The translations under genes and the position numbers were made by a program. 64,000 bases of DNA from Paracoccus liaowanqingii (GTDB lineage: Bacteria; Pseudomonadota; Alphaproteobacteria; Rhodobacterales; Rhodobacteraceae), in NCBI RefSeq assembly GCF_004683865.2, contig NZ_CP040763.1, positions 62,001-126,000 of the forward strand. The letters run 5' to 3'. A model generated the notes under the pieces. That model did not search any database, had not been told where the DNA came from, and saw nothing but the letters and a program-made list of their open reading frames with translations. Shown one piece after another: positions 1 to 28,512 of the stretch. The first letter of the stretch is position 1. Every line of letters begins with the position of its first letter.

Positions 1-71
1 GCGCAGCGCCGCCCGATGCCCTTGCTGCCGCCGGTGATCACCGCCCGAAGGCCCGTCAGTCCAAGATCCAT
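1..71 (-). CDS. SDR-family oxidoreductase, N-terminal fragment (runs off the window)
   Basis: Only the first 23 codons are inside the window. The reading begins MDLGLTGLRAVITGG and continues SKGIGRR, which is the glycine-rich TGxxxGIG nucleotide-binding turn at the start of classical short-chain dehydrogenases/reductases. The ATG at 71 has a GAGGGG ribosome-binding sequence and lies 10 bases after the stop of the amidohydrolase gene, so it is probably the distal gene of the same minus-strand operon. Such an enzyme would oxidise or reduce an alcohol or carbonyl with NAD(P); the substrate cannot be inferred because the catalytic Tyr-Lys region lies outside the window. Confidence 0.75.
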   Translation of the reverse strand, partial: MDLGLTGLRAVITGGSKGIGRRC

Positions 72-81
72 CTTTTGCCCC

Positions 82-1068
82 TCACTTCACATAGCGCTTC
101 AGGATCGACGCCCCGACGCTGTATTTCGGATCGACCATGTTGCCCAAGCGGACCTTGCCGCACATGGTCAGCAGCATATAGGCGTCGGCCTCGGACTGTC
201 CCGTCTCGGCCGCCAGCCAGCGGACCAGCTCGCGATAGGCGATGCGGGACGCATCCTCCAGCGGGCGGGCCGAGCCGATGAACATCATCATCTCCTCGGT
301 CTCCAGCTGCGGCCAGCTGTTGCCATGCCCCTTGATCAGGTCGATCTGCAATTCGACCGTGGCCGGGATCTCCAGCGCGACGCCGCACAATTCCCCGTCG
401 CCCTGAATGGCGTGACAGTCGCCCAGATACAGATAGCCGCCCGGCGTGTTCACCGGAAGATAGATGATCGCGCCCGGCCCCACGTCCGGCAGGTCCATGT
501 TGCCGCCGTAATAGTCGGGCTGCAGGGACGAGATCGCCTCGATCTCGGGCGAGGTGCCGATGGTGCCGATGAACGGCTCGTAGGGCAGGGTCAGGGTGTC
601 GGACCAATGGACGCCGCCCTCGTCCACGACGATCTTCTTGACCTTCTCGGGCAGGGGCGCGTTCAGCATCGCGGTGTTGCCGGTGCCGACCAGACCGCCG
701 AATTCCGGGATCAGGCAGGTGGTGCCCACCGGCTGCGCGCCCCGCGGCGTGATCGAAATGATCCGCACCGCCAGCGCATCGCCCTTTTCCGCGCCCCTGA
801 CGTGGATCGGCCCGGTCTGCGGGTTGAGAAACGGGAAGTTCAGGATGTCCGAGGGTTTGTCGCTTTCCGAGGTGATCTTGCCCTCGAACGCGTCATGGGT
901 TTCGACCGTCACCACCGCGCCCGGATCGACCTCCAGCACCGGCTGGACATAGGGGCCATAGACATAGTGGAACTTGCCCTGATCGGCGATGGTGATGGTG
1001 TGGCGGTCGCCCGCCCGGCCCTTGGCGACGCCCTTGCGCGCCATGATCGAAGTGTCCAGCCAGCTCAT
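82..1068 (-). CDS. Acetamidase/formamidase (FmdA/AmdA family), cluster A
   Basis: A cytoplasmic amidohydrolase of 328 residues, expected to release ammonia from a short amide such as formamide or acetamide. The family signature is visible as GDCHAIQGDGELCG in the middle of the protein, together with the KGHGNSWPQLET stretch typical of FmdA/AmdA proteins. I chose the ATG at 1068 because AAGGAG lies just before it; an in-frame ATG at 1086 would put that ribosome-binding site inside the gene. It is the eighth gene of a minus-strand operon that starts with an AmiC-like sensor and carries its own ABC importer, so the imported substrate is probably its amide. A related enzyme is encoded at 25805-26764. 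The exact substrate is not shown by the sequence. Confidence 0.9.
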   Translation of the reverse strand: MSWLDTSIMARKGVAKGRAGDRHTITIADQGKFHYVYGPYVQPVLEVDPGAVVTVETHDAFEGKITSESDKPSDILNFPFLNPQTGPIHVRGAEKGDALAVRIISITPRGAQPVGTTCLIPEFGGLVGTGNTAMLNAPLPEKVKKIVVDEGGVHWSDTLTLPYEPFIGTIGTSPEIEAISSLQPDYYGGNMDLPDVGPGAIIYLPVNTPGGYLYLGDCHAIQGDGELCGVALEIPATVELQIDLIKGHGNSWPQLETEEMMMFIGSARPLEDASRIAYRELVRWLAAETGQSEADAYMLLTMCGKVRLGNMVDPKYSVGASILKRYVK

Positions 1069-1092
1069 GTTTGCTCCTTCCGGCATGTCGTC

Positions 1093-1806
1093 TCAGATGG
1101 TCAGATGGCGCCGCACGGCGTCGCGCGACGATATCTCGTCCGGCCCCAAGGTGGCCACGATGCGGCCCTTTTCCATGACGTAGCCCCGCTGCGCCATCGA
1201 CACGATCAGGTCCAGGTTCTGTTCGACCAGCAGCACCGCCACCCCCGTCTGCGCGTTCAGTTCCCGCATGTTGCGCGAGATATCCTTGATGATCGAGGGC
1301 TGAATGCCCTCGGACGGCTCGTCCAGCAGCATCAGGCGGGGATGGCTGACCATCGCCCGCCCAATGGCTAGCTGCTGCTGCTGGCCGCCCGACAGGGTGC
1401 CCGCCCGCTGCCGGGCGCGGTCCTTGAGGATCGGGAAGAACCGGTGGATCAGGTCGTAATCGGGGGCCGGACGCCCTGCGCCCGCGACCTCGCCCACCAT
1501 CAGGTTCTCGCGCACGCTGAGGTCGGGGAACACGTCGCGGCCCTGCGGGATGTAGCCGATGCCCTGCAGGGCGCGGTGGTTGGCCCCCATCTGCGTGACA
1601 TCCTGTCCGCCAAAGCGGATGCTGCCCCCGCTGGCAGGCAACAACCCGATCAGCGTGCGCATCAGGGTGCTTTTGCCGACGCCGTTGCGGCCGATGACGG
1701 CCACGATCTCGCCCGCGTTCAGGGTCAGATCGACGCCCTGCAGGACCTGTTCGCCGCCATAGCCGCTGCACAGGCCCGTCGTCTGCAAAAGGACGGTGTC
1801 ACGCAT
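1093..1806 (-). CDS. Branched-chain amino acid/urea-type ABC transporter ATPase (LivF/UrtE-like)
   Basis: A 237-residue ATPase that powers import from the cytoplasmic face of the membrane. Walker A is GRNGVGKST near residue 39, the signature is LSGGQQQQLAIGRA, and Walker B is LMLLDEPSEGIQPS; the EGIQPS ending is typical of LivF/UrtE proteins, as is the VLLVEQNLDL H-loop region, where Gln-Asn replaces the usual His. The start overlaps the end of the partner ATPase gene by 8 bases, implying translational coupling. With the permeases at 2515-4481 and the binding protein at 4554-5792 it makes a complete HAAT-family importer. Its place beside FmdA suggests amides or urea-like compounds rather than leucine (inference). 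Confidence 0.93.
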   Translation of the reverse strand: MRDTVLLQTTGLCSGYGGEQVLQGVDLTLNAGEIVAVIGRNGVGKSTLMRTLIGLLPASGGSIRFGGQDVTQMGANHRALQGIGYIPQGRDVFPDLSVRENLMVGEVAGAGRPAPDYDLIHRFFPILKDRARQRAGTLSGGQQQQLAIGRAMVSHPRLMLLDEPSEGIQPSIIKDISRNMRELNAQTGVAVLLVEQNLDLIVSMAQRGYVMEKGRIVATLGPDEISSRDAVRRHLTI

Positions 1807-2518
1807 CGGCGGCCCCCAGATAGATTTCCTGCACGCCGGGATGGGCGGTGATCTGGTCGATGCTGCCTTGGGCGAAGATGGCGCCCATGTGCAGCACGGT
1901 CACGCTGTGGGCGATCTGCTGCACGAAGGCCATGTCATGTTCGACGGCCAGGATGGTGATGCCGCGCGCGTTCAGGTCGTGCAGCATCTCTCCGGTCTTG
2001 CGGGTCTCGTCGGGGGACATGCCCGCCGTGGGCTCGTCCAGCAGCAGCAGACGCGGCTCGACGCCCACGGCCATCCCGATCTCCAGCCATTGCTGCTGGC
2101 CGTGGGACAGCACGCCCGCCGGGGTCGCGGCCTCGGACGTCAGGCCGGTGAAGTCCAAGACCTGCCGGATGGTCCCGGTCAGGCTGGCGCCGTGCAGGTG
2201 GTGCTGGAAGGCGATCTGAAGGTTCTGGCGCACGCTGAGCGCCTTGAAGATGCCGGGGACCTGGAACTTGACGCTGATCCCCTCGCGGATGCGCTGGAAG
2301 GACCGCAGAGGGGTGATGTCGCGGCCCCGAAAGGTGATCGTGCCGCTGTCGGGGGCATGTTCGCCCAGAAGCAGCCGGAAGAAGGACGATTTGCCCGCCC
2401 CGTTCGGTCCGATCAGGCAATGCATCGCGCCCTCGTCCAGCGCGAAGTCGATGTCGCGGGCGACGGTCACGCCGCCGAAGCGCTTGTTCAGTTTGCTGAC
2501 CTGCAGGATCCGGGTCAT
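1799..2518 (-). CDS. Branched-chain amino acid/urea-type ABC transporter ATPase (LivG/UrtD-like)
   Basis: A 239-residue ATPase and second nucleotide-binding subunit of the cluster A importer. It has Walker A GPNGAGKSS, a VKFQVPGIFKALSV segment like that of UrtD proteins, the variant signature LSHGQQQWLEIGMA (His in place of the usual Gly) and Walker B LLLLDEPTAGMSP, followed by AVEHDM with the switch histidine. The ATG at 2518 overlaps the stop of the LivM-like permease gene as ATGA, so I start here although the frame is open further upstream. The SHGQQQW signature is common in UrtD and favours a urea or short-amide transporter over a true branched-chain amino acid one. Confidence 0.92.
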   Translation of the reverse strand: MTRILQVSKLNKRFGGVTVARDIDFALDEGAMHCLIGPNGAGKSSFFRLLLGEHAPDSGTITFRGRDITPLRSFQRIREGISVKFQVPGIFKALSVRQNLQIAFQHHLHGASLTGTIRQVLDFTGLTSEAATPAGVLSHGQQQWLEIGMAVGVEPRLLLLDEPTAGMSPDETRKTGEMLHDLNARGITILAVEHDMAFVQQIAHSVTVLHMGAIFAQGSIDQITAHPGVQEIYLGAADA

Positions 2519-3621
2519 CGCGCCGCCTTTCCGAAGATGCGCCCAAGGCGCTGCATCAGGGTCGCGACCACCCCATCGGGCGTGACCATGACGGTGAAGA
2601 CCAGCAGCGCGCCCATTACGACCAGCGCATATTGGCTGCCATAGATGGTCAGGGACTGAAAACCGGCGATGACCAGCACGCTGCCCAGCAGTGTCGCGGT
2701 GATGTCGCGCCGTCCCCCGACCGCGACCCAGACAATCGGCAGCGCCGCAGAGGTCAGCCCCATGCTGGAGGGCGTGATGTATTGGCCCCAAGCGGTGTAC
2801 AGCGCGCCCGACAGCCCGGCCAGCGCACCCCCCAGCCCGAAGGCCAGCATCTGGTACAGGCGGATGTCATAGCCCAGCATCTCGGTCCGTTCGGGGTTTT
2901 CCCGGATGGCGACCAGCACATTTCCGAAGGGCGCGTTCAGCAGCATGCGCAGCCCCAGATAGACGGCCACCACCATCGCCAGCAGCACATAATACAGCGC
3001 CGTCCCGGAATAGAGGACCACGTCCCCGCTGAACCACGGCACGGTCAGGGGCGGCATGCCGGACATGCCGTTGAACCCGTTCAGCCGCGCCGTGCCGATG
3101 GCCCATTGCGGGCCTGCGGTCTGCGACATGAACGTCTCCAGCACCAGCGTGACGGACAGGGTGACGATGCCGATGAACACGCCCTTGATGCGGCCATAGA
3201 ACATGAAATAGCCGATCAGCAGGGCGAAGGCGCCGCCCAAGCCCACCGACAGGATCAGCGCCAGCCATGTCAGCCCATAGGCCGATCCGATATTGATCGT
3301 GATGACGCCATAGGCATAGCCCGCCAGCCCGAAGAACGCGGTCTGCCCGAAGCTGAGCGCGCCGCAATATCCCCAGACCACGCCCAGCCCCATCGCCATG
3401 AAGGTCCAGACCAGGAAATAGGCGGCATTGCCGACCGTATAGTCGTTGCTGAACAGCGGATAGACCGCTGCGGCCAGCACCACCGCCACCATGGCGGCCC
3501 AGAAGGCCGGGCCGCGGCCCATGGTCTGCGGCCCCTCCAGACGCGACAGCCATTGGCGGGCGCGCGACCGGGCGGGGGCGGCCGGGGCGTTCAGCGCCTC
3601 GGCGCGGCTCATCGCTGCCAC
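2515..3621 (-). CDS. Branched-chain amino acid/urea-type ABC permease (LivM/UrtC-like)
   Basis: An integral membrane protein of 368 residues with about nine to ten hydrophobic segments, of the BPD_transp_2 family. A proline- and alanine-rich cytoplasmic N-terminus of some 40 residues precedes the first membrane helix. The segments GYCGALSFGQTAFFGLAGYAY (first part) and FGLGGALAGLSGALY are the conserved loops of LivM/UrtC permeases that contact the ATPases. The gene overlaps the upstream LivH-like gene by 13 bases and the downstream ATPase gene by 4, so all are probably made from one transcript. It should form the translocation pore together with the LivH-like protein. Confidence 0.92.
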   Translation of the reverse strand: MAAMSRAEALNAPAAPARSRARQWLSRLEGPQTMGRGPAFWAAMVAVVLAAAVYPLFSNDYTVGNAAYFLVWTFMAMGLGVVWGYCGALSFGQTAFFGLAGYAYGVITINIGSAYGLTWLALILSVGLGGAFALLIGYFMFYGRIKGVFIGIVTLSVTLVLETFMSQTAGPQWAIGTARLNGFNGMSGMPPLTVPWFSGDVVLYSGTALYYVLLAMVVAVYLGLRMLLNAPFGNVLVAIRENPERTEMLGYDIRLYQMLAFGLGGALAGLSGALYTAWGQYITPSSMGLTSAALPIVWVAVGGRRDITATLLGSVLVIAGFQSLTIYGSQYALVVMGALLVFTVMVTPDGVVATLMQRLGRIFGKAAR

Positions 3622-4481
3622 CGCTTGACGACGGCGGACAATCCGCCGGGCATGATCCGGATGACGACGATGACGGCGACCAGCAGGCCGATCTGGCCGA
3701 ACAGTTGCCCGTACCAGGCGGTCAGGCTGGCCTTGATGATGGCGAGGATCGCGGCGGCAGGGGCGGCGCCCAGAAAGATGTCCGCACCGCCCACGACCAC
3801 GGTCACGAAGCTCTCCACGATGAAGGTCGCGCCCATCGTCGGCACCATCGTCATGGTCGGCGCATAGAGCCCGCCCGCCAGCCCGGCCAGCCCCGCACCC
3901 AGTCCGAAGGTCAGCCCATAGATGCGCCGCGTGTCGACCCCAAGCGCACGCGCCATGGCGGGCCGCTGGATCGTCGCGCGGGCGATCACGCCGAAGCGGG
4001 TGTGATAGAACAGCAAATACAGCCCGCCCAGAAGGCCCACCGCCGCGGCGAACAGCACCAGCCGGTAAAGCGAATAGGAGCGATCCCCCAGGGCCATGCT
4101 GCCCAGGGGCGTGCCCACCCCCTGCATGGTCGGCCCCAGCAGGATCAGCACGCCCTGCGTGGCGATCAGGCTGATCCCCCAGGTGGCGATGATGCTGTCC
4201 ATGGGCCGGTGATACAGATGCCGCATCACGGTGCGTTCAAGGACCATCCCGATGGCCGCCGCCGCCAGCGCCCCGCACAGGATGGCGACAGGCAGGGCCA
4301 GCCCCGCCCGCGCGGTCGCGGCGGTGACATAGGCGCCGCACATGATGAATTCGCCATGCGCCAGATTGATCACCCCCATCATCCCGAAGATGACCGCCAG
4401 CCCGGCGCAGGAGATGACCAGAAAGGCGAAGGCATCGCCGAACTGATAGGTGATGGAAAAGATCGCCGTGAAAAGCTCCAC
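3609..4481 (-). CDS. Branched-chain amino acid/urea-type ABC permease (LivH/UrtB-like), GTG start
   Basis: A 290-residue membrane permease, the partner of the LivM-like protein. The motifs GVINLAHGEFIMCGAY near the N-terminus and GLGAGLAGLAGGLYAP near residue 190 are hallmarks of LivH/UrtB. The start is a GTG at 4481 with GGAGG seven bases upstream. It follows the binding-protein gene by 72 bases, and that gap carries a strong GC hairpin (4517-4543), so permease output may be lower than that of the binding protein. Specificity is not readable from the permease; the gene context points to amides. Confidence 0.92.
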   Translation of the reverse strand: MELFTAIFSITYQFGDAFAFLVISCAGLAVIFGMMGVINLAHGEFIMCGAYVTAATARAGLALPVAILCGALAAAAIGMVLERTVMRHLYHRPMDSIIATWGISLIATQGVLILLGPTMQGVGTPLGSMALGDRSYSLYRLVLFAAAVGLLGGLYLLFYHTRFGVIARATIQRPAMARALGVDTRRIYGLTFGLGAGLAGLAGGLYAPTMTMVPTMGATFIVESFVTVVVGGADIFLGAAPAAAILAIIKASLTAWYGQLFGQIGLLVAVIVVIRIMPGGLSAVVKRWQR

Positions 4482-4553: not shown

Positions 4554-5792
4554 TCAGGGCGCCGGGGGCGGGCTGGAGGGGGTGTATTGCGCACTGGGAT
4601 CGTTCTGGGTCAGATCGCAGCCCGCATCGCCCAGCCAGTAGGGCTCGATGTTCTCCCATGTCTCGGGGAAGGTGATCGAATGGTCATCCTCGACCTTGGC
4701 CAGGAAGATGGTGTGGGACATGTGCTGGCTTTTGGGGTCCAGGCAGACATTGCCGGACGGTCCGTCGAAGCAGACATCGCCCTCGGCCAGCACGGCGCGG
4801 ATCGCGTCATGATCGGTGCTGCCCGCGCGTTCCACCATCTGCTTGTAGAGATTGATCCCGATGTAGGAGTTCGCGGCCTCCTGGTTGATGTAGGGCTCGT
4901 CGGGGAACATGGCGCGGAAGCGCTCGACGAAATCCGTCGAGGCGGGGCTGTCGATCTCCTCGATATAGTTCGTCGTCACGTACATGTCGGCAAGGCTGGG
5001 CGGGGTGAAGCGCTTGTGCTCGTAGCCCTGTCCCACGTTGACGGACGACGCCATCGGCAGCCCGACATCGGCGGCGTTCGCCTGTTCGTAATACGAGGCC
5101 TGCGCCGCACCGACCAGCAGGGTCACCACGAAGTCGGCCTCGCTTTGCTGGATGTTCTGGATGGTCTGCGAGAATTGCGACACGCCGAGCGGGATGAACT
5201 CTTCGCCCGCCATGGTGCCGCCGTTCTCCTCGACGATCTGGCGCACCCATTCGGCCGAGATCTGGCCGAAGTTGTAATCCGCCGCCAGCGTGTAGACATT
5301 GGGGCCGTAGGTTTCCATCATCCACGGGATCAGGGTCGAGAACTGCTGTTCGGGCACCGCGCCCGTCACGATCATGTTGGCGTCGCAGACCCCGCCCTCG
5401 TACTGGTTGTTGTAGAAGGCCAGCCCGTCGAACTGGTTCACGATGGGTCGGTAGGCCTCGCGCGAGGCCGAGGAAAAGCCCGCGAACACGACATCGACCT
5501 CATCCTGCTGCAGCACCCGGCGCATGAATTCCTGATAGCGGCGGTTGTCGGACTGGGTGTCATAGACCACCAGCTCGATCGGGCGCCCATCGATGCCGCC
5601 GGCGTCGTTGATCTCCTTGGTGGCCAGCTCGATGGCATGGACCTTGACGGCGGTGGCGGCGGCGAAGTCGCCCGACTGGTCCTCGAGGACGCCGATCTTG
5701 ATCGGGCCGTCCTGCGCCAGGGCGGGCTGCCCGGCCATGATGGTTCCTGCCAGCAGAGCGGCAAGCAGAGTGCGGTTCAGTGACTTTCTCAT
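4554..5792 (-). CDS. Periplasmic substrate-binding protein, UrtA/AmiC fold (cluster A importer)
   Basis: A 412-residue secreted protein with a clear signal peptide (MRKSLNRTLLAALLAGTIMA, then cleavage near PALAQ). It belongs to the Peripla_BP_5/6 group: GVLEDQSGDFA opens the first domain and NQYEGGVCDANMIVTGAVPEQ is like the corresponding region of urea- and short-chain-amide-binding proteins. The C-terminus ends in a proline-rich tail. The ATG at 5792 overlaps the stop of the AmiR-like gene, with AGGAG about nine bases upstream. It should capture the substrate in the periplasm and hand it to the LivH/LivM-like permeases. Urea, formamide or a larger amide are all possible. Confidence 0.9.
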   Translation of the reverse strand: MRKSLNRTLLAALLAGTIMAGQPALAQDGPIKIGVLEDQSGDFAAATAVKVHAIELATKEINDAGGIDGRPIELVVYDTQSDNRRYQEFMRRVLQQDEVDVVFAGFSSASREAYRPIVNQFDGLAFYNNQYEGGVCDANMIVTGAVPEQQFSTLIPWMMETYGPNVYTLAADYNFGQISAEWVRQIVEENGGTMAGEEFIPLGVSQFSQTIQNIQQSEADFVVTLLVGAAQASYYEQANAADVGLPMASSVNVGQGYEHKRFTPPSLADMYVTTNYIEEIDSPASTDFVERFRAMFPDEPYINQEAANSYIGINLYKQMVERAGSTDHDAIRAVLAEGDVCFDGPSGNVCLDPKSQHMSHTIFLAKVEDDHSITFPETWENIEPYWLGDAGCDLTQNDPSAQYTPSSPPPAP

Positions 5793-6445
5793 CTGGTCAT
5801 TCTCCTGTTGGGGGCCGGGGTGTCGGGGCGGTCATCGGCGGGGACCCAGGGGTGCGCGGAAGGCTCCGCGGCGTGAGGGGTCAAAGCCAGATGCTCGCGC
5901 GCCAGTTCGTCGATGGGCAGGCGCCGGTTCATGGCGGCCAGCCGCAGCCGTTCGTATGCGTCGTCATGGTTCAGGCCATGTGCCAGCATCAGGTTCAGGA
6001 CCGCCCGGGTGACGATCCGGCGACCCGCCATGCGCTGGCGCAGGCTGTGGATCTCGCGATCCGCCTTGCGGCGCCGGTCGTGCTCGTTCACCGCCAGCAG
6101 CAGGGCGGTGAACACCCCGGAACTGCGGATCGGCTTCATGATGTGGCTGGCGCAGCCCTGGGCCACGACACGGGCCAGCTGGCTGGGCGCCTCGCTGCCG
6201 ATCAGCGCGATGCAGGGCAGGGCGTCCGGCGCCGCACGGGGTGGCAGCCCCTCGGTGACCATGTCGGCCAGAACGATGTCGCTGCCCGCCAGCGCATCAG
6301 GCAGGACCGCGTCCTGCGGGTCGATGGTGCGCACGTCCAGTCCCAGCCTGCCCAGCACGCCGACCAGCATCTGCCGGTTGGCATCCTCGGCATGGATCAC
6401 CAGCGCCCGCAGGCCACGGAAGTTCTTGGTGATCGCGCCCTTCAT
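5789..6445 (-). CDS. AmiR-like ANTAR response regulator / antiterminator (cluster A)
   Basis: A 218-residue regulator with an AmiR layout: an N-terminal pseudo-receiver (about residues 10-130, with VLADMVTEGLPP and the KPIRSSGVFTALLLA segment) followed by a coiled coil and a C-terminal ANTAR domain (REIHSLRQRMAGRRIVTRAV through DDAYERLRLAAMNRRLPIDE). ANTAR domains bind paired stem-loops in leader RNA and prevent termination; in Pseudomonas AmiR is held inactive by AmiC until amide binds. The start at 6445 overlaps the AmiC-like stop as ATGA, so the two are made together. The protein has some 20 extra residues after the ANTAR domain. The leader of its own operon holds an intrinsic terminator at 7620-7663, a plausible target (inference). 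Confidence 0.9.
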   Translation of the reverse strand: MKGAITKNFRGLRALVIHAEDANRQMLVGVLGRLGLDVRTIDPQDAVLPDALAGSDIVLADMVTEGLPPRAAPDALPCIALIGSEAPSQLARVVAQGCASHIMKPIRSSGVFTALLLAVNEHDRRRKADREIHSLRQRMAGRRIVTRAVLNLMLAHGLNHDDAYERLRLAAMNRRLPIDELAREHLALTPHAAEPSAHPWVPADDRPDTPAPNRRMTR

Positions 6446-7605
6446 CGCACCACCTGCAGGTGGGCGGGGGCCTGCCGGGGGGCGACGTCCCCAAGGCTGG
6501 CCCAGACCAGATAGGGGTCGGGCCAGACCGGCGCGGGGTCTTCGTGCAGGATGTCGAAGGTTCCGTGATCGGTCGAGCGGCCGATGCGCGGGCGCAGGCA
6601 GCAATGCAGATTGTCGGGATCGACCGTCACCAACCCCTGCGGCGCCGCGAACCGGATGCCGCCAAGGGCTGCGCGCATTTCGGCGAAACCCGTGGACCCG
6701 GCCTTTGCCACGGCCAGCGCCAGCAGGTGGATGGCGATATAGGCGGCCTCGGCATCCGCGCAGGCCCGTCCCAGATGCGCGTAATGCCGGTCCCATTGCG
6801 CGGTGAAGCGGTCGTTCGCCTCCGACCGGATGGTCGAGAAATAGACCGACGAGGACAGATGCCCCGCCGCGCTGTCCCCGATCATCGGCAGTTCCGCCTC
6901 GGACAGGCTGCAACTGGCGATGGGCAGCGCGCGTGGCTGGTCGATCCCTGCCGCGGCCGCTTCTGCCCGCAGCAGCCGGAAGAATTCGTAGCAGGAATGG
7001 CCGATCAGCGTCGTGAAGATGAAGTCGGGCCGATCCGACACGATCTGGCGGGCCACGGCGCGCAGATCCGTCTCACCGACCGGGAAATACCGCTCTCCGA
7101 TGACGGCGCCGCCGACCTCGGACAGGGCCTCGCGCAGGATGCGGTTGTTTTCCCACGCCCAGATGTAGTTCGAGCCGACCAGCCAGCCCCGCTTGCCGTG
7201 ATGGCACAGCAGGTGGCGCACCAGGGGGATGATGTGCTGATTGGGTGCCGCACCGGTATAGACGACGTTCTCGCTGGTCTCGAACCCCTCGTAATGGGAC
7301 GGGTACCACAGCAGGGCGTCGTTCTTTTCGAACAGCGGCAGCACGTCCTTGCGGCTGGAGGACGTGTAGCAGCCGAGGACGTGGGTCAATCCCCGGTCGA
7401 CCAGCAGCGCCTGCATGGCCTCGCCATAGGCGGACTGCACGCCTCCGGGATCGATGGCCACGGGGTGGAGCGTGACGGCGGCCTGCCGGTCGGCATTCAC
7501 CTCGGCGATGGCCAGGTCCGCGCCGGCGCGCATCGACCGACCGACCGCCGCGTAAGAGCCCGTGGTCGAAAGCACGATCCCGATGTCCAGCTGCCGTCTC
7601 GTCAT
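6442..7605 (-). CDS. AmiC-like cytoplasmic amide sensor (cluster A)
   Basis: A 387-residue Peripla_BP_5 protein without a signal peptide, as in AmiC of Pseudomonas (385 residues), the ligand-sensing negative regulator of AmiR. It opens with DIGIVLSTTGSYAAVGRSM; LLWYPSHYEGFETSENVVYT and GSNYIWAWENNRILRE are typical of AmiC and short-chain-amide-binding proteins. I start at the ATG at 7605: the in-frame GTG at 7644 falls inside a terminator hairpin and would add a 13-residue extension. It is the first gene of the operon and overlaps the AmiR-like gene by four bases. By family knowledge it binds AmiR without ligand and releases it when amide is present. It is clearly homologous to the protein at 20657-21769. 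Confidence 0.88.
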   Translation of the reverse strand: MTRRQLDIGIVLSTTGSYAAVGRSMRAGADLAIAEVNADRQAAVTLHPVAIDPGGVQSAYGEAMQALLVDRGLTHVLGCYTSSSRKDVLPLFEKNDALLWYPSHYEGFETSENVVYTGAAPNQHIIPLVRHLLCHHGKRGWLVGSNYIWAWENNRILREALSEVGGAVIGERYFPVGETDLRAVARQIVSDRPDFIFTTLIGHSCYEFFRLLRAEAAAAGIDQPRALPIASCSLSEAELPMIGDSAAGHLSSSVYFSTIRSEANDRFTAQWDRHYAHLGRACADAEAAYIAIHLLALAVAKAGSTGFAEMRAALGGIRFAAPQGLVTVDPDNLHCCLRPRIGRSTDHGTFDILHEDPAPVWPDPYLVWASLGDVAPRQAPAHLQVVR

Positions 7606-7619: not shown

Positions 7620-7663
7620 AAACAAAAAGCCCCCATGGCGACAAGACTGTCGCTCAGGGAGGC
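7620..7663 (-). terminator. Intrinsic terminator in the leader of the amiC-amiR operon (cluster A)
   Basis: Read on the minus strand, GCCTCC (7663-7658) pairs with GGGGGC (7634-7629), with an inner perfect stem GCGACA/TGTCGC and a four-base loop, and the structure is followed at once by TTTTTGTTT. It lies only about 14 bases before the AmiC-like start codon and after the likely promoter, so it ends a leader RNA rather than an upstream gene. This is where an ANTAR antiterminator would be expected to act. The hairpin and U run are seen directly; the regulatory role is inferred. Confidence 0.7.
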
Positions 7664-20533: not shown

Positions 20534-20580
20534 GCCGCCCCTGCCCCATGCGGAACTCCAAGGCGACATAACCGGCAATC

Positions 20581-20640
20581 ACGCCCCGCGATCCCGCAAC
20601 GCGCCCCCTCTTTCAGGCGCCGGGATCCGCGGGGCGTTTC
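20581..20640 (+). promoter_or_regulatory. Leader hairpin upstream of the second amiC-amiR operon (cluster B)
   Basis: ACGCCCCGCGATCCCG (20581-20596) pairs with CGGGATCCGCGGGGCGT (20621-20637) with one bulged base, and TTTCTCG follows. The 24-base apical part can form an additional GCGCC/GGCGC stem. It ends about 20 bases before the GTG start of the AmiC-like gene, matching the place of the terminator at 7620-7663. A weak terminator controlled by the ANTAR protein encoded downstream is the natural reading, but it is inferred. Confidence 0.5.
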
Positions 20641-20656
20641 TCGTTGAGGGACCCCC

Positions 20657-21769: not shown

Positions 21770-22359
21770 CACGGCGGCTGCAGATCCCCGATCTGGGCGG
21801 CGCGCGGGCCGCGATCCTGCACCGCCCGCATGCGACCGTCGCGGCCCTGACCCGCCAGCTGGAGGCCATCGGCCTGCACATCGAGGCACATTGGCCCGAA
21901 CTGCCCGCCGCCGCGCGCGGGGCCGACTACCTGTTCCTGGATGTCGACACCGCGCACGAGGACCAGTTCCCCTGGGCGCCCGGGCAGGCGCCGATGCCCA
22001 CCGTCGCGCTGGTCGGATCCGAGGCGCCGGGGCGGATCGAATGGCTGATGAATTTCGGCGCGGATGCGCAGATCCTCAAGCCCGTGGGCACCGGCGGGGT
22101 CTATTCCGCGCTGCTGATCGCGCGGGCCACCTTCGATGCGCGGGCCGAGATGGCCGACCGCATCGACAGCCTGCGCCGCCGCTTGGGCCAGCGCCAGACG
22201 GTGGTGCGCGCTGTGGCCCTGCTGGCCGCGCGCGGCAAGACCGAGGATGCCGCCTATGACCAGCTGCGCGGCATGGCGATGGCTTGGCGCGTCAGCTTCG
22301 AGGATGCGGCCGAACGCATCGTGGCCCTGGCTCAGGCGCAGGAGGCCGATCATGGCTGA
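21766..22359 (+). CDS. AmiR-like ANTAR response regulator / antiterminator (cluster B)
   Basis: A 197-residue regulator, the same size as Pseudomonas AmiR (196). The N-terminal pseudo-receiver runs to about residue 125 (LFLDVDTAHEDQ, then ILKPVGTGGVYSALLIAR); a coiled coil and the ANTAR domain follow (DSLRRRLGQRQTVVRAVALL through AYDQLRGMAMAWRVSFEDAA). It should bind leader RNA and prevent termination when released by the AmiC-like partner. It overlaps that gene by four bases and the downstream permease gene by eight. Unlike its homologue at 5789-6445 it has no C-terminal tail. Confidence 0.9.
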   Translation: MTRRLQIPDLGGARAAILHRPHATVAALTRQLEAIGLHIEAHWPELPAAARGADYLFLDVDTAHEDQFPWAPGQAPMPTVALVGSEAPGRIEWLMNFGADAQILKPVGTGGVYSALLIARATFDARAEMADRIDSLRRRLGQRQTVVRAVALLAARGKTEDAAYDQLRGMAMAWRVSFEDAAERIVALAQAQEADHG

Positions 22360-23236
22360 CGCCACCCCCCTGGCCCCCGTCGCCCCGGCGGGCGCGCTGC
22401 GCCGTCTGCTGCGCCGCAGGCTGGCGCTGTTCGGGCTGGCGATCATCGCGCTGGTCGTCGGCGGCGCGCTGCTGGCCCCGTGGATCGTGCGCCACGGCCC
22501 CAACGAGCAGCTGTTCGAGGGGCTGACCCTGCAGGGCGCCCCCATGCCGCCGGGCGGCGACTTCCTGATGGGCACCGACCTGCTGGGCCGCGACCTGTTC
22601 AGCCGGATCCTCTACGGCGCGCGGACCTCGCTGATCATCGGCATCGTCGCGAATGGCGCGGCGCTGATCATCGGCACGCTGGTCGGGCTGACGGCGGGCT
22701 TTGTGCGCGGATGGGTGGGCGCGGTGCTGATGCGCTTCACCGACCTGATGATGGCCTTTCCCGCGCTGCTGCTGGCGATCTGCCTGGCGGCGATCTTCCA
22801 GCCCTCGCTGTGGATCGTGGCCATGGTGATCGCGCTGGTGAACTGGGTCCAGACCGCCCGCGTCGTCTATACCGAGACCACCAGCCTGGCCGAACGCGAG
22901 TTCATCGCCGCCGAGCGCACGCTTGGCGCCTCGGGGGCGCGCATCCTCTTCCGCCACATCCTGCCGCATCTGGTGCCGACGCTGATCGTGTGGGGCACGC
23001 TTGGCATTTCCGTCACCGTGCTGCTGGAGGCGACGCTCAGCTTTCTGGGGGTCGGCGTGCAGCCCCCCACCCCCAGCTGGGGCAACATCATCTTCGAGAA
23101 CCAGACCTATTTCCAGGCCGCGCCCTGGCTGGTCTTCATCCCCGGCGCGGCGATCCTGCTGCTGGCGCTGGCCTTCAATCTGGTGGGCGACGCGCTGCGC
23201 GACGTGCTGGACCCGACGCAGCGGGGGCGCGACTGA
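22352..23236 (+). CDS. Peptide/nickel-type ABC permease, DppC-like (cluster B)
   Basis: A 294-residue BPD_transp_1 permease with six helices. The motifs FLMGTDLLGRDLFSRILYGAR, the loop TSLAEREFIAAERTLGASGA and LSFLGVGVQPPTPSWGNIIF identify it as DppC/OppC type. The start at 22352 overlaps the AmiR-like gene by 8 bases and the stop overlaps the DppB-like start by one (TGATG), so sensor, regulator and transporter are translated in a chain. Here DppC precedes DppB, the reverse of clusters C and D. Confidence 0.93.
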   Translation: MADATPLAPVAPAGALRRLLRRRLALFGLAIIALVVGGALLAPWIVRHGPNEQLFEGLTLQGAPMPPGGDFLMGTDLLGRDLFSRILYGARTSLIIGIVANGAALIIGTLVGLTAGFVRGWVGAVLMRFTDLMMAFPALLLAICLAAIFQPSLWIVAMVIALVNWVQTARVVYTETTSLAEREFIAAERTLGASGARILFRHILPHLVPTLIVWGTLGISVTVLLEATLSFLGVGVQPPTPSWGNIIFENQTYFQAAPWLVFIPGAAILLLALAFNLVGDALRDVLDPTQRGRD

Positions 23237-24156
23237 TGGCCGGATACCTGTTCCGCCGCGTGGTGGCCGCCCTGCTGATCCTGCTGGGCGTCAGCTTCAT
23301 CACCTTCGTGCTGCTCTATGTGCTGCCCGCCGATCCGGTGCGCCAGATCGCCGGGCGCTCCGCCACCGCGCAGACGGTCGAGAACATCCGCGCCCAGCTG
23401 GGTCTGGATCAGCCGCTGCTGGTGCAATACGGGCGCTATCTGGCCGGGCTGGTGCAGGGCGACATGGGCCGCAGCTATCTGCAGAAGACCGAGGTCTCGT
23501 CGCTGATCGCCGCCCGCCTGCCCGCGTCCCTGCTGCTGATGGCGGGGGGGATCGCGGCCGAGCTGCTGATCGGCCTGACCCTTGGCGTGATCGCCGCGAT
23601 CTTTCGCGGGCGGCCGCTGGATCAGGGGCTGATGGTGACCAGCTTCGTCGCCGTGTCCGCTCCGCAATTCGTGGTGGGGCTGCTGCTGCTCTATGTCTTC
23701 GCGGTGCAGCTGGGCTGGTTCCCCATCGGCGGGTATGGGACGGCGGCGCATCTGGTCCTTCCCGCGCTGACGCTTGGGATCATGGGGTCGGGCTGGTATT
23801 CGCGGATGATGCGGTCCTCGATGATCGAGGTGCTGCGTCAGGATTACATCCGCACCGCCCGCGCCAAGGGCCTGACGCGGGGCCGCGTGCTGTTCCACCA
23901 CGCCCTGCCCAACGCCATCCTGCCGATCATCGCCATGATCGGCATCGACATCGGCATCTTCATGGGCGGGCTGGTCGTCGTGGAAAGCGTCTTCGGCTGG
24001 CCCGGCATCGGGCAACTGGCCTGGCAGGCGATCCAGCGCGTCGACATTCCGATCATCATGGGGGTCACGATGGTCTCCGCCACCGCCATCGTGCTGGGCA
24101 ACCTGCTGGCCGACATCGTCACTCCCTTCATCGATCCGCGCATCAAGATGCGGTAA
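23236..24156 (+). CDS. Peptide/nickel-type ABC permease, DppB-like (cluster B)
   Basis: A 306-residue permease opening with AGYLFRRVVAALLILLGVSF and VLPADPVRQIAG, then GDMGRSYLQ, and the EAA-type loop RSSMIEVLRQDYIRTARAKG; ESVFGWPGIGQLAWQAI is the C-terminal family signature. The ATG at 23236 shares a base with the previous stop. It makes the channel with the DppC-like protein. The binding-protein gene follows 24 bases later without a hairpin between them. Confidence 0.93.
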   Translation: MAGYLFRRVVAALLILLGVSFITFVLLYVLPADPVRQIAGRSATAQTVENIRAQLGLDQPLLVQYGRYLAGLVQGDMGRSYLQKTEVSSLIAARLPASLLLMAGGIAAELLIGLTLGVIAAIFRGRPLDQGLMVTSFVAVSAPQFVVGLLLLYVFAVQLGWFPIGGYGTAAHLVLPALTLGIMGSGWYSRMMRSSMIEVLRQDYIRTARAKGLTRGRVLFHHALPNAILPIIAMIGIDIGIFMGGLVVVESVFGWPGIGQLAWQAIQRVDIPIIMGVTMVSATAIVLGNLLADIVTPFIDPRIKMR

Positions 24157-24180: not shown

Positions 24181-25800
24181 ATGAAAAAGCTGCTCTGTTC
24201 CTCTGCCCTGATCGCCGCGCTGGCCCTGCCCGCCCTGGCGCAGGATTATACCCCCGATCCGGCGGCCGTGCCCGGCGGCATGATCACCGTCACCTACAAG
24301 GACGACGTGGCGACCCTGGACCCGGCCATCGGCTATGACTGGCAGAACTGGTCGATGATCAAGTCGCTGTTCGACGGGCTGATGGACTATGTCCCCGGCA
24401 CCACGGAACTGCGCCCCGGCCTGGCCGAAAGCTATGAGGTGTCCGAGGACGGCACCGTCTTCACCTTCACCCTGCGCCAGGGCGTGACCTTCCACAACGG
24501 CCGCGAGATGACGGCCGAGGACGTGAAGTACTCGCTGGACCGCGTCACCGACCCGGAAACCCAATCGCCCGGCGCGGGCTTCTTCGCCTCGATCGCGGGT
24601 TTCGACGCGGTCTCGGCGGGCGAGGCCGACAGCCTGTCGGGGGTCGAGGTCATGGACCCGCTGACCGTCCGCATCACCCTGTCGCGCCCCGATGCGACCT
24701 TCCTCCATGTCATGGCGCTGAACTTCGCCTCGGTCGTGCCGCAGGAGGCGGTCGAGGAGTTCGGCGCCGATTTCGGCAAGAACCCCGTCGGCACCGGCGC
24801 CTTCACCCTGGCGGAATGGACCATCGGCCAGCGCCTGACCTTCGAGAAGAACGCCGATTACTGGCGCGACGGCGTCCCCTATCTGGACGGCATCACCTTC
24901 GAGGTGGGCCAAGAGCCCATCGTGGCGCTGCTGCGCCTGCAGCAGGGCGAGGTCGACGTGCCCGGCGACGGCATCCCTCCGGCCAAGTTCCAGGAGGTGA
25001 TGGATGATCCCGACCAGGCCGCGCGCGTGGTCGAGGGCGGCCAGCTGCACACCGGCTACATCACGCTGAACGTGGGCGTCGAACCCTTCGACCAGCTGGC
25101 CGTGCGCGAGGCCGTCAACATGGCCATCAACAAGGAGCGCATCGTCCAGGTCATCAACGGCCGCGCCGTGCCCGCCACACAGCCCCTGCCCCCCTCGATG
25201 CCCGCGTATACCGAGGGCTTCGCGGGCTTTGCCCATGACGTCGAAGGTGCGAAAGCCAAGCTGGCCGAGGCCGGGCTGGCGGACGGCTTCACCACCCAGC
25301 TTTACGTGATGAACACCGATCCGAACCCCCGCATCGCGCAGGCCATCCAGCAGGACCTGTCCCAGATCGGAATCGAGGTCGAGATCCGCAGCCTGGCGCA
25401 GGCCAACGTGATCGAGGCCGGCGGCGCCGGAGAGGCGCCGATGATCTGGTCGGGCGGCATGGCCTGGATCGCGGACTTTCCCGATCCGTCGAACTTCTAC
25501 GGCCCGATCCTAGGCTGCGCGGGGGCGGGCGACGGCGGCTGGAACTGGTCCAAGTTCTGCGACGAGGCGATCGACGCCAAGGCCACCGAGGCCGACAGCT
25601 TCACCGACCCCGCCTCGCCCGAGCGGCTGGAGCTGTGGTCGCAGGTCTATCAGGACGTGATGGCCCAGGCCCCCTGGGTGCCGGTCTTCAACGAACAGCG
25701 CTACACGATGAAGTCGGCGCGCATGGGCGGCGAGGACGCGCTCTATGTCGATCCGGTCTCGATCCCGGTGAACTACGACTATGTCTACGTGACCGAGTAA
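24181..25800 (+). CDS. ABC transporter substrate-binding protein, DppA/OppA (SBP_bac_5) family (cluster B)
   Basis: A 539-residue periplasmic protein with the signal peptide MKKLLCSSALIAALALPALA cleaved before QDYTPD. The family signatures FTFTLRQGVTFHNGREMTAE and VKYSLDRVTDPE are near residue 100, and NPVGTGAFTLAEWTIGQRLT follows. Unlike in clusters A, C and D, the binding-protein gene lies after the permeases. It is followed closely (4 bases) by the FmdA/AmdA-type gene. The ligand is presumably the amide or peptide-like compound sensed by the AmiC homologue. Confidence 0.92.
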   Translation: MKKLLCSSALIAALALPALAQDYTPDPAAVPGGMITVTYKDDVATLDPAIGYDWQNWSMIKSLFDGLMDYVPGTTELRPGLAESYEVSEDGTVFTFTLRQGVTFHNGREMTAEDVKYSLDRVTDPETQSPGAGFFASIAGFDAVSAGEADSLSGVEVMDPLTVRITLSRPDATFLHVMALNFASVVPQEAVEEFGADFGKNPVGTGAFTLAEWTIGQRLTFEKNADYWRDGVPYLDGITFEVGQEPIVALLRLQQGEVDVPGDGIPPAKFQEVMDDPDQAARVVEGGQLHTGYITLNVGVEPFDQLAVREAVNMAINKERIVQVINGRAVPATQPLPPSMPAYTEGFAGFAHDVEGAKAKLAEAGLADGFTTQLYVMNTDPNPRIAQAIQQDLSQIGIEVEIRSLAQANVIEAGGAGEAPMIWSGGMAWIADFPDPSNFYGPILGCAGAGDGGWNWSKFCDEAIDAKATEADSFTDPASPERLELWSQVYQDVMAQAPWVPVFNEQRYTMKSARMGGEDALYVDPVSIPVNYDYVYVTE

Positions 25801-25804
25801 CCCC

Positions 25805-26764
25805 ATGTGCAAGCAGTGCGACTATACGATCCACGGCGCGCAGCATCACTTTGGCTGGGACAATTCCATCGCCCCGGTCCAGACCGTCGCGCCGGGATCG
25901 ACGATCCTGTTCCAGTGCCAGGATTCCTCGGCGGGCCAGCTTGGCCCGTCCTCCAGCGTCGCCGACGTGGTGGCGCTGGATTTCGGCAAGATCAACCCCG
26001 TGTCCGGCCCCGTCTTCATCGAGGGGGCCGAGCCGGGCGATGCGCTGAAGATCACGCTGGATCACTTCGCGCCCCGCGAACAGGACGGATCGGCCTGGGG
26101 CTGGACGGCCAACATCCCGGGCTTCGGGCTGCTGGCGGACCAGTTCACCGACCCGGCGCTGACCATCTGGCGCTATGACGCCGCGACCTTGGCCCCCGCC
26201 TTGTGGGGCCAGCACGGGCGGGTGCCGCTGAAACCCTTCACCGGGACCATCGGCGTGGCGCAGGCCGAGCCGGGGCTGCATTCCATCGTCCCGCCCCGCC
26301 GCACGGGCGGCAATCTGGACATCCGCGACATCGCCACGGGCACGGTCCTCTACCTGCCGGTCGAGGTCGCGGGGGCGCTCTTCTCCGTGGGCGACACCCA
26401 TGCGGCGCAGGGTGACGGAGAGGTCTGCGGCACCGCCATCGAAAGCCCGATGGATGTCACCCTGACGCTGGATCTGGTCAAGGGCGCGAACCTGAAGATG
26501 CCGCGCTTTAACACGCCCGGCCCCGTGACCCGGCATCTGGATGCCAAGGGATATGAGGTGACGACCGGGATCGGTCCCGACCTGATGACCGGGGCGCGGC
26601 AGGCGGTGGAACAGATGGTCGATCTGCTCTGTGCGCAGCACGGGATGGCGGCCGTCGATGCCTATATGCTGGTCTCCACCTGCGGCGACCTGCGCATCTC
26701 GGAGATCGTGGACATGCCCAACTGGGTCGTGTCCTTCTATTTCCCGCGCGCGGTCTTCGAATGA
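25805..26764 (+). CDS. Acetamidase/formamidase (FmdA/AmdA family), cluster B
   Basis: A 319-residue cytoplasmic amidohydrolase. Its family signature is VGDTHAAQGDGEVCGTAIE, and HHFGWDNSIAPV and GKINPVSGPVFIEGAEPGDAL are typical of the shorter acetamidase/formamidase group. It is only distantly related to the enzyme at 82-1068. The ATG at 25805 lies 4 bases after the binding-protein stop, and its stop overlaps the start of the fused ATPase (ATGA), placing the enzyme between transporter subunits. It should release ammonia from an imported amide; a cysteine pair at the N-terminus (CKQC) is notable. Confidence 0.9.
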   Translation: MCKQCDYTIHGAQHHFGWDNSIAPVQTVAPGSTILFQCQDSSAGQLGPSSSVADVVALDFGKINPVSGPVFIEGAEPGDALKITLDHFAPREQDGSAWGWTANIPGFGLLADQFTDPALTIWRYDAATLAPALWGQHGRVPLKPFTGTIGVAQAEPGLHSIVPPRRTGGNLDIRDIATGTVLYLPVEVAGALFSVGDTHAAQGDGEVCGTAIESPMDVTLTLDLVKGANLKMPRFNTPGPVTRHLDAKGYEVTTGIGPDLMTGARQAVEQMVDLLCAQHGMAAVDAYMLVSTCGDLRISEIVDMPNWVVSFYFPRAVFE

Positions 26765-28512
26765 CCGACACGCCGCTTCTGTCGGTGCAGGGGCTGACCG
26801 TGTCGGTCCGGGACCGGGGGGTGCTGCGCCCCCTGGTCCAGGATCTCAGCTTCGATCTGCGGGCGGGCGAGGTGCTGGCCATCGCGGGCGAAAGCGGCTC
26901 GGGGAAATCCATCACCTCCCTGGCGCTGATGGGGCTGTTGCCGCCGAACGTCGCGGTCACCTCGGGCCGGATGGTGCTGGACGGCACCGATCTGGCGAGC
27001 CTGCCGGAATCCCAGATGCGGCCCCTGCGCGGCGCCAAGGTGGCGATGATCTTTCAGGAACCGATGACCTCGCTCAACCCGGTGCAGACCATCGGCACCC
27101 AGCTGGCCGAGGCGATCCGCGCCCATGATCCCGTCTCGCGCGGGCAGGCCCGGGCGGCGGCGGTGGGCGCGCTGCGGCAGGTCCGCATCTCGGAACCCGA
27201 ACGGCGCATGGGGCAGTACCCGCACGAGCTGTCGGGCGGCATGCGCCAGCGGGTGATGATCGCCATGGCGCTGGCCCTGCGCCCGGCGCTGCTGATCGCG
27301 GACGAGCCCACCACCGCGCTGGACGTGACCGTGCAGCGCGAGGTGCTGGACCTGCTGCGCGACCTGCAGGGCCAGACCGGCACCGCCATCATCCTGATCA
27401 CCCATGACATGGGCGTGGTGGCCGAAACGGCCGACCGCGTCGTGGTCATGCAGGCCGGCCGCCGGGTCGAGGAGGGCACCACCCCGCAGGTCTTCGCCGC
27501 GCCCCGCGCGGCCTATACCCGCGACCTGCTGGCCGCCGTGCCGCGCTTGGGCGCCGGGGCCCTGCGCGCCGCCCCGCCGCCGCCCGAGGCGCCCGTCCCC
27601 GTGGCCCGCCTGTCCGAGGCCAGCGTGCATTTCGACATCGGCGCGAACTTCCTCGGCCGCCCCACGCATCGCGTCCATGCGGCCCTGGGCGTCAGCTTCG
27701 ACATCCGCCCCGGCGAGACCTTCGGCCTGGTCGGCGAAAGCGGCTGCGGCAAGTCCACCGTCGCCAAGGCGCTGGCCGGGCTGGTGCCCCATCAGGGCCG
27801 GATCGAGGTCGGGGGCCGCGCCCTGTCGGACCTGACCGCGCAGGGCCGGAAGGACATCTGCCGCGACATCCAGATGGTCTTCCAGGACCCGATGGCGGCG
27901 CTGGACCCGCGCATGAAGGTGGGCGACGCGGTGGCCGAGCCGCTGGTCATCCACCGCATCGGCACCCCTGCCGAACGCCGCGCCCTGACCGAGGACCTGT
28001 TCCGCCGCGTGGGCCTGACCCCCGACCAGATGTCGCGCTATCCCCACGAATTCAGCGGCGGCCAGCGCCAGCGCATCTGCGTGGCGCGCGCCCTGGCGCT
28101 GCGCCCCCGGCTGATCATCTGCGACGAAAGCGTGTCCGCGCTGGACGTGTCGGTGCAGGCCCGCGTGCTGGCCCTGCTGGAAGAGCTGAAGGCCCAGTCC
28201 GGCGTGTCCTACCTGTTCATCAGCCATGACATGGCCGTGGTCGAGAACATCGTCGACCGGCTGGCGGTGATGTATCTGGGCCAGATCGTCGAGATGGGCA
28301 GCCGCGACCAGATCTTCGGCAACCCGCAGCATCCCTATACGCGCCGCCTGCTGGACGCGGTGCCGATCCCCGACCCCGCCCGCCGGGGCCGCGCCCATCT
28401 GCGCCCGGCGGGCGAGATCCCCTCGCCCCTGCATCCCGTCGGCACCCCCCCGGCCCGGCACCGCCTGCACGACATCGGCCACGGCCATCTCGTCGCGCCC
28501 GAGGCTGCCTGA
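26761..28512 (+). CDS. Fused DppD-DppF-type ABC transporter ATPase (cluster B)
   Basis: A single 583-residue protein with two complete ATPase halves. Half one has [26 protein letters not shown] and [15 protein letters not shown]; half two, from about residue 285, has GESGCGKSTVAK, FSGGQRQRICVARAL and LIICDESVSALDVSV with FISHDMAVVE. The fusion replaces the DppD and DppF pair and should be enough to power the permease pair at 22352-24156. The C-terminal tail is shortened compared with DppF and lacks the cysteine-containing oligo_HPY end. It is the last gene of operon B. A similar fusion is found at 43700-45373. Confidence 0.93.
   Translation: MTDTPLLSVQGLTVSVRDRGVLRPLVQDLSFDLRAGEVLAIAGESGSGKSITSLALMGLLPPNVAVTSGRMVLDGTDLASLPESQMRPLRGAKVAMIFQEPMTSLNPVQTIGTQLAEAIRAHDPVSRGQARAAAVGALRQVRISEPERRMGQYPHELSGGMRQRVMIAMALALRPALLIADEPTTALDVTVQREVLDLLRDLQGQTGTAIILITHDMGVVAETADRVVVMQAGRRVEEGTTPQVFAAPRAAYTRDLLAAVPRLGAGALRAAPPPPEAPVPVARLSEASVHFDIGANFLGRPTHRVHAALGVSFDIRPGETFGLVGESGCGKSTVAKALAGLVPHQGRIEVGGRALSDLTAQGRKDICRDIQMVFQDPMAALDPRMKVGDAVAEPLVIHRIGTPAERRALTEDLFRRVGLTPDQMSRYPHEFSGGQRQRICVARALALRPRLIICDESVSALDVSVQARVLALLEELKAQSGVSYLFISHDMAVVENIVDRLAVMYLGQIVEMGSRDQIFGNPQHPYTRRLLDAVPIPDPARRGRAHLRPAGEIPSPLHPVGTPPARHRLHDIGHGHLVAPEAA

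Follow-up and report, generated by a model that had tools for sequence, protein, structure and literature searches.

The 64,000-nucleotide stretch of Paracoccus liaowanqingii DNA analyzed here (contig NZ_CP040763.1, positions 62,001 to 126,000; hereafter the window) contains two operons that each combine an AmiC-like ligand sensor and an AmiR-like ANTAR protein with an ABC importer and an FmdA/AmdA-family hydrolase. The locus raises the question of whether the two operons are copies of one module and of how a substrate could switch them on. By sequence comparison, operons 1 and 2 belong to two distinct lineages, and across Alphaproteobacteria each lineage generally retains its own importer. 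We consider it probable (about 0.77) that they are separately evolved, substrate-induced operons for amide-like compounds, each governed by AmiR antitermination at its leader. This reading is carried by a leader terminator upstream of each amiC, the 5' arm of which can also form a hexaloop hairpin, and by the recurrence of this arrangement in related loci.

Gene content of the two operons

The genes of both operons are listed below in window coordinates.

Operon 1, minus strand, from the amiC start at 7605 to the FmdA/AmdA stop at 82
6442..7605, minus strand, amiC1, AmiC-like ligand sensor of 387 amino acids (Peripla_BP_5 match and AmiC structure matches)
5789..6445, minus strand, amiR1, AmiR_N and ANTAR domains, 218 amino acids (Pfam and AmiR match)
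4554..5792, minus strand, UrtA-like binding protein, N-terminal signal-like stretch by eye (TIGR03669, 594.1 bits, cut-off 494.8)
3609..4481, minus strand, UrtB-like permease (best NCBIfam score 325.4, under the cut-off of 374.25)
2515..3621, minus strand, UrtC-like permease (356, under the cut-off of 575.55)
about 1799..2521, minus strand, UrtD/LivG-like ATPase, start codon not fixed (Pfam, neighbor comparison)
1093..1806, minus strand, UrtE/LivF-like ATPase (UrtE 275.7, under the cut-off of 285.8)
82..1086, minus strand, FmdA/AmdA-family hydrolase 1 (Pfam; 432 bits to 5ubu)

Operon 2, plus strand, from the amiC start at 20657 to the end of the fused OppDF-like ATPase at 28512
20657..21769, plus strand, amiC2, AmiC-like ligand sensor of 370 amino acids (Pfam; 135 bits to AmiC)
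21766..22359, plus strand, amiR2, AmiR_N and ANTAR domains, 197 amino acids (Pfam and AmiR match)
about 22352..23236, plus strand, OppC-like permease (Pfam)
about 23236..24156, plus strand, OppB-like permease (Pfam, NCBIfam)
24181..25800, plus strand, SBP_bac_5 binding protein (Pfam)
25805..26764, plus strand, FmdA/AmdA-family hydrolase 2 (Pfam, structure sequence match)
26761..28512, plus strand, fused OppDF-like ATPase with two ABC domains (Pfam, NCBIfam)

The Pfam scores were above the cut-offs for AmiR_N (50.6 in operon 1 and 45.3 in operon 2; cut-off 27), ANTAR (44.3 and 37.5; 27.3), Peripla_BP_5 (386 and 240.9; 27) and FmdA_AmdA (132.2 and 206.5; gathering cut-off of PF03069, 27), several of the scans having been run on open frames that extend beyond the gene. 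AmiC1 matched Pseudomonas AmiC with 218 bits and 8tg1 with 236 bits (sequence matches to crystal structures), and it matched urea-binding proteins as well. AmiR1 and AmiR2 matched AmiR with 45.7 and 33.6 bits, respectively. Alignments showed a GDxHAxQGDGE stretch in both FmdA/AmdA enzymes. The initial annotation had placed an AmiC-like sensor and an AmiR-like ANTAR protein at the head of both operons, which these scores bear out. Pfam and NCBIfam scans also agree with its assignment of a Liv/Urt-type importer to operon 1, a Dpp/Opp-type importer (peptide/nickel type by NCBIfam) to operon 2 and one FmdA/AmdA enzyme to each. Its limits for operon 2, 20657 to 28512, stand; operon 1 ends at 82 and not at position 1.

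Neighboring genes overlap as ATGA at amiC/amiR in both operons and at amiR/urtA in operon 1, and the end of amiR2 overlaps oppC. The AmiC N-termini, read by eye, have no obvious signal peptide. The sensor pair comes first in operons 1 and 2, unlike in the amidase operon of Pseudomonas aeruginosa.

Leader elements

Simple scans missed both leaders and a custom leader search was therefore written. Below, HP1 and HP2 are the upstream and downstream hexaloop hairpins, and A1, G4, C4 and G5 give a base with its position in the loop.

Leader of operon 1
7758..7763, minus strand, predicted -35 TTGACA (script scan), with a predicted -10 TGTCCT at 7739-7734
7711..7726, minus strand, first hexaloop hairpin HP1, loop AACGAT (A1, G4), one stem mismatch (HP1 search)
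7675..7687, minus strand, linker hairpin GCGCATGATGCGC between HP1 and HP2 (fold; similar hairpins in relatives by eye)
7660..7673, minus strand, second hexaloop hairpin HP2 AGGC-AACATG-GCCT, overlapping the terminator 5' arm (custom search)
7620..7664, minus strand, leader terminator with U tract (-23.1 kcal/mol; fold)

Leader of operon 2
20528..20533, plus strand, predicted -35 TTGACA (script scan), with a weak predicted -10 CGGAAC at 20551-20556
20565..20570, plus strand, GACATA element near the predicted transcript 5' end (close relatives by eye; no statistic)
20573..20586, plus strand, hexaloop hairpin HP2 CGGC-AATCAC-GCCC, no HP1 found upstream (custom search)
20582..20645, plus strand, leader terminator with interrupted U tract (-39.0 kcal/mol; z-score -3.78)

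Operon 1 has two hexaloops, spaced about 42 nucleotides apart with a hairpin inside the linker, and operon 2 has apparently one. The operon 2 leader folded better than shuffled sequences (z -2.25 and -3.78). Its predicted -10 ends 20 nucleotides ahead of the HP2 loop, and the transcript is predicted to begin some ten bases before HP2, which would leave no room for an HP1.

Recurrence of the leader in related loci

The comparison covered 126 unique leaders of at least 200 nucleotides, exact duplicates and one shorter leader (L184) having been dropped. Near-copies were retained, one pair among the 30 Opp-type leaders and many among the Urt-type ones. Loci were labeled by their downstream genes as Urt-type (type 1), Opp-type (type 2), importer-less or 'x'. 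The HP2 rule was fixed after inspection of a first set of leaders, and leaders failing it (22 Urt-type, 1 Opp-type and 2 importer-less) stayed in the counts. Expected numbers were obtained from dinucleotide shuffles for the first HP2 test and from mononucleotide shuffles for the HP1 test and the Paracoccus set. Some tallies (promoter spacing, HP1 G4, family genomes) were counted by hand from listings.

Overlap of HP2 with the terminator was found in 47 of 69 Urt-type leaders (1.72 expected), in 29 of 30 Opp-type leaders (0.58 expected) and in 6 of 8 importer-less ones (0.10 expected). The 'x' loci gave 3 of 19 (0.33 expected), and all three (L085, L103, L147) are cut-off type 1 or type 2 loci. 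The 16 other 'x' AmiC/AmiR clusters lack the overlap; one of them, L188, is a cut-off Urt-type locus. Among Paracoccus leaders collected later, the overlap was present in 10 of 11 of Opp type (0.27 expected), none of which had been counted before, and in all five of Urt type. Four of these five are exact copies of leaders already counted, so that only one Urt-type and 11 Opp-type leaders were new. The recurrence supports self-inducing antitermination of the whole operon. Self-inducing modules for sensing, import and hydrolysis had also been proposed in the initial annotation; the terminator and hexaloop 5' of both amiC genes, recurring above chance, fit this part of the proposal, and the substrate part is unproven.

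The two leader types differ in their loops. At position 4 of the HP2 loop, 29 of 47 Urt-type leaders have G and 18 of 29 Opp-type leaders have C; G5 is present in 21 of the 29 Opp-type leaders. An HP1 was present in 41 of the 47 Urt-type leaders with HP2 (12.2 expected), with G4 in 30 of the 41. Its distance to HP2 was 41-45 nucleotides in the nearest relatives of the window and mostly 32-35 or 67-72 nucleotides in the others. The Paracoccus Urt-type leaders had HP1 in three of five cases by threshold, and the other two show a three-pair GGC-AACTGC-GCC stem. All six importer-less leaders with HP2 also had HP1 (1.8 expected). A consensus fold of the Opp-type leaders recovered the terminator alone. 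When 21 Urt-type leaders were aligned with MAFFT, the HP1 part aligned poorly; several of these leaders were cut inside HP1.

Some individual leaders are worth describing. Two clear hexaloops, 52-57 nucleotides apart, occur in the importer-less loci L152, L177, L182, L190, L200 and L202. Four of the 16 'x' leaders lacking the overlap (L154, L156, L167 and L188), three of them from metagenome-assembled genomes of Rhodospirillales, contain paired GGC-A-N5-GCC hexaloops with no obvious U tract by eye. Bradyrhizobium-type Urt leaders (L162, L169, L171, L191 and others) have a strong terminator whose 5' arm carries no A1 hexaloop under the rule used, and their switch may differ.

Two lineages and their genomic setting

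Gene order was compared across 40 genomic stretches, 11 plasmid regions and, out of 190 related loci, the best 80, some loci being shared between these sets. Type 1 loci conserve AmiC-AmiR followed by UrtABCDE-FmdA, and type 2 loci AmiC-AmiR followed by OppC-OppB-SBP-FmdA-OppDF. A third set of 8 loci has AmiC-AmiR-FmdA with no importer recognized between them; Urt-like genes follow in L185. The initial annotation had suggested a search for AmiC/ANTAR genes together with importers and FmdA in other genomes, and both layouts were indeed found to recur, each with its own importer. The sensor-first layout for sensing, import and hydrolysis is thus widespread in Alphaproteobacteria with two importer classes.

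FastTree trees of 126 AmiC and 126 AmiR sequences required 2 label changes for type 2 and 6 for type 1, compared to means of about 27 and 41 after shuffling of the labels. One change is probably accounted for by L103, the cut-off type 2 locus labeled 'x', which adjoins type 2 rows in both trees. Within the window the two AmiC proteins are about 40% identical and the two AmiR proteins 36%. Local duplication was rejected, as the two types fall into different groups in the AmiC and AmiR trees and each has an importer of its own. The sensor phylogeny that the initial annotation had called for thus speaks against its description of the architecture as 'parallel' or 'duplicated', which is misleading.

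Both types rarely occur together. Among 198 genomes of the family, a type 1 AmiR (E below 1e-45) was found in 6 and a type 2 operon in at least 20, 16 by AmiR match (E below 1e-60) and four (L104-L107) by gene content. Judged by the gene content of the retrieved loci, three of the 198 genomes (this one, G071 and G125) have both, on different contigs in G071 and G125. In a genus sample both types were found in 1 of 121 genomes, this one, at the strengths used and among the matches that could be assigned, with part of the weaker AmiR matches covered. A conserved pairing of the two operons was rejected on account of this rarity. Because the types group apart and seldom co-occur, their pairing here is best described as a rare accumulation of two widespread modules. 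In the draft genome of the nearest relative, Paracoccus gahaiensis, the sole AmiR2-like match is its Urt-type AmiR, which likewise speaks against a conserved pairing; AmiC is 97% identical to its P. gahaiensis counterpart.

The window covers 64 kb of a 260,425-base contig that carries none of the genome's three RepC matches. The placement of both operons on one plasmid in the initial annotation is therefore not supported and remains a guess. Elsewhere both operon types are present on plasmid records, and in Sulfitobacter sp. OXR-159 (L222, L223) two plasmids each carry an Opp-type operon. Three ANTAR loci were counted in the genome to which the window belongs, operons 1 and 2 accounting for two of them, along with five FmdA/AmdA loci (fragments merged by hand); one FmdA/AmdA locus is on a different contig and scored 615 bits.

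Proposed mechanism and alternative explanations

From the genes, their order, the leaders and the recurrence of these leaders we infer the following course of events, by analogy with AmiC-AmiR and EutV. RNA polymerase would start 5' of amiC, and most transcription would end at the leader terminator. Once inside the cell, a ligand would bind AmiC, presumably cytoplasmic, which would then release AmiR, and a free AmiR dimer would hold HP2 so that the terminator cannot form. The full operon, with sensor, antiterminator, importer and hydrolase, would then be transcribed. More importer and more sensor would follow; since sensor and antiterminator both lie 3' of the attenuator, induction would raise them too, giving positive feedback. 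The two switches would probably be insulated from each other by their unlike loops and ANTAR domains. EutV residues R142, K143, K147, Tyr164 and Met172 have been named in RNA binding (PMC8934654). The corresponding residues, matched by number and spacing, are R142, R143, R147, Y164 and M172 in AmiR1 and R143, Q144, R148, Y164 and M172 in AmiR2, so that Tyr164 and Met172 have counterparts in both proteins.

Several observations weigh against this mechanism. The HP2 loops of both operons have A1, but position 4 is A in operon 1 (AACATG) and C in operon 2 (AATCAC) instead of the published G, and the U tract of the operon 2 terminator is interrupted. The operon 1 leader was no better folded than shuffled sequences (z -0.77; 40 of 200 shuffles equally good; -1.88 for the 3' part). 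Simple sigma-70 and terminator scans detected no promoter or terminator in either leader, and Rfam gave no match at gathering score anywhere in the window. Among the relatives, 22 of 69 Urt-type leaders miss HP2, about 12 of these being of one Bradyrhizobium-like kind, and near-copies among the Urt-type leaders inflate hits and misses alike. Finally, FmdA enzyme 1 scored 75.6 bits against the formamidase model NF045496, the equivalog cut-off of which is 500.

Alternatively, the leaders could simply terminate transcription of the genes upstream, or attenuate constitutively, while AmiR acts elsewhere. A same-strand racemase-family gene does end at 20439, about 140 nucleotides before the operon 2 terminator, and a same-strand PLD-domain gene ends at 8092, about 430 nucleotides before that of operon 1. 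We regard this explanation as very unlikely, as the overlap of HP2 and terminator 5' of amiC far exceeds that in shuffles and is missing from the 16 other 'x' clusters mentioned above. A single regulon, in which one sensor pair governs both operons, would agree with the GGC-A-N5-GCC frame common to both RNA sites. It is improbable given the unlike HP2 loops, the preference of Opp-type leaders for C4/G5 and of Urt-type leaders for G4, the several ANTAR positions that differ by operon type, and the fact that the types are mostly found apart. More weight can be given to the idea that urea is the substrate of operon 1 and small peptides that of operon 2, instead of simple amides, although it too is doubtful. 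It is suggested by the UrtA-like protein, which passes its NCBIfam urea cut-off, and by the peptide/nickel type of importer 2. However, the UrtB-, UrtC- and UrtE-like proteins score under theirs, each operon encodes an FmdA/AmdA enzyme with no urease or peptidase among its genes, and both sensors match AmiC, even if AmiC1 also matches urea-binding proteins. The AmiC, AmiR and UrtA matches make an amide, urea or a related compound the likely substrate of operons 1 and 2, judging from the encoded proteins, but none is proven.

The number of hexaloops in Opp-type leaders is a separate issue. There is an even chance, in our estimate, that these leaders are one-hexaloop antiterminators located at the transcript 5' end, lacking a recruitment hairpin and recognized by an ANTAR lineage that prefers C4 G5 over G4. 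Operon 2 might also be a two-hexaloop system, with HP1 degenerate or located further upstream of an earlier start. This would be in line with the A1 hexaloop found somewhere upstream in 9 of 29 Opp-type leaders, with an adjacent hairpin with another loop seen by eye in about half of the relatives, and with the Opp-type transcription starts being predictions, 10 of 30 leaders having no predicted promoter close to HP2. Yet 9 of 29 is not beyond chance (7.3 expected), the hexaloops have no constant place, and HP1 occurred in none of the 10 Paracoccus Opp-type leaders with HP2 (2.47 expected). Moreover, the end of the predicted -10 is only 17-38 nucleotides before the HP2 loop in 20 of 30 leaders, and 17-22 nucleotides in 8 of these, operon 2 included. 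A promoter so near to HP2 would explain the missing HP1. We thus find a hidden second hexaloop rather unlikely. A GACATA-like stretch at the predicted 5' end is common to the near relatives of operon 2 by eye.

Comparison with known systems

Both operons resemble the AmiC-AmiR operon of Pseudomonas aeruginosa in having an AmiC-like sensor, an AmiR-like ANTAR protein and a leader with terminator and hexaloops that controls an ammonia-releasing amidase (mechanism in PMC3369931). They differ by their FmdA/AmdA-family enzyme and complete ABC importer.

For the dual-hexaloop eut leaders, Ramesh et al. (2012, PMC3369931) reported that both hexaloops matter, as do A1, G4 and the length of the linker. 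They also mention matches upstream of urea transporters, and some Urt-type leaders may figure in their supplementary tables. According to Walshe et al. (2022, PMC8934654), a EutV dimer binds a single hexaloop at any one time and antitermination needs both hexaloops; the authors call for work on the role of single hexaloops. Lengthening the eut linker to 14 nucleotides, or by 20 nucleotides, strongly reduces or abolishes activity (PMC3369931, PMC8934654). Published linkers are 5-12 nucleotides in eut (PMC3369931) and 2-25 nucleotides in an actinobacterial survey (PMC8164766). The leaders described here share with the ANTAR dual-hexaloop systems (EutV, NasR, AmiR) a terminator 5' arm that can form an A-first hexaloop hairpin with 3-4 base pairs and, in operon 1, a first hexaloop. 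In contrast, the linker of operon 1, at about 42 nucleotides, exceeds the published lengths, operon 2 has no detectable first hexaloop, and neither HP2 has G4.

According to the EutV work, antitermination takes two hexaloops close together, which makes operon 2 an apparent exception that can be tested. If our reading is correct, the Opp-type leaders break the two-hexaloop rule and the Urt-type leaders its spacing part. In 30 natural leaders (20 of 29 plus 10 of 10), each beside its own ANTAR gene, no first A1 hexaloop was found, whereas the sister Urt family mostly has one, in most cases at 32-72 nucleotides. The two rules could be compared side by side because one cell holds one leader of each kind.

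A Klebsiella plasmid acetamidase operon has been described with amiC, amiR, an amidase and a cluster-5 ABC importer (PMC13209695), which we gloss as Opp/Dpp-like. It shares with operons 1 and 2 the combination of amiC and amiR with a hydrolase and an importer, in its case an amidase and the cluster-5 type. A Klebsiella plasmid region among our loci (L260), which may not be that operon, contains, in this order, an FmdA-family gene, amiC, amiR and a gene for a nitrilase-related hydrolase, with an IS3-family transposase gene downstream; its sensor is not first, unlike in operons 1 and 2. On the Pseudomonas veronii chromosome an amiE-fmdA-fmdB-urtABCDE cluster was described in which no amiC or amiR was found (PMC13209695). 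It shares FmdA and a Urt-type importer with operon 1, the regulators being present only in operon 1. The initial annotation knew of no description of such an architecture. For the leader type this agrees with our literature search, which covered titles and abstract openings, most subscription journals being outside it, and showed no such report among the papers listed; for the genes, the plasmid operon of PMC13209695, which joins amiC and amiR to a cluster-5 importer, is a related published case. The modules themselves are of a known kind. Judged from sequence comparison and predicted promoters, the new element is the regulatory RNA, chiefly the leader of operon 2 with its apparently single hexaloop.

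Other genes in the window

At 30524-34312 long open reading frames occur on both strands, the plus-strand frame at 30791-34162 being without a Pfam match. Between the operons, at 10889-19828 on the minus strand, lies a third importer cluster with an SBP_bac_5 protein, two Opp-type permeases and two Opp-type ATPases, which also includes an amidase-signature enzyme (PF01425) and a gamma-glutamyltranspeptidase. The Asp/Glu/hydantoin racemase-family gene at 19813-20439 on the plus strand is divergent from this cluster. An M81-family metallopeptidase (MlrC-like) is encoded at 38618-47649 along with genes of an Opp-type importer and two matches to M20 peptidases, and the contig therefore holds several sets for amide or peptide uptake.

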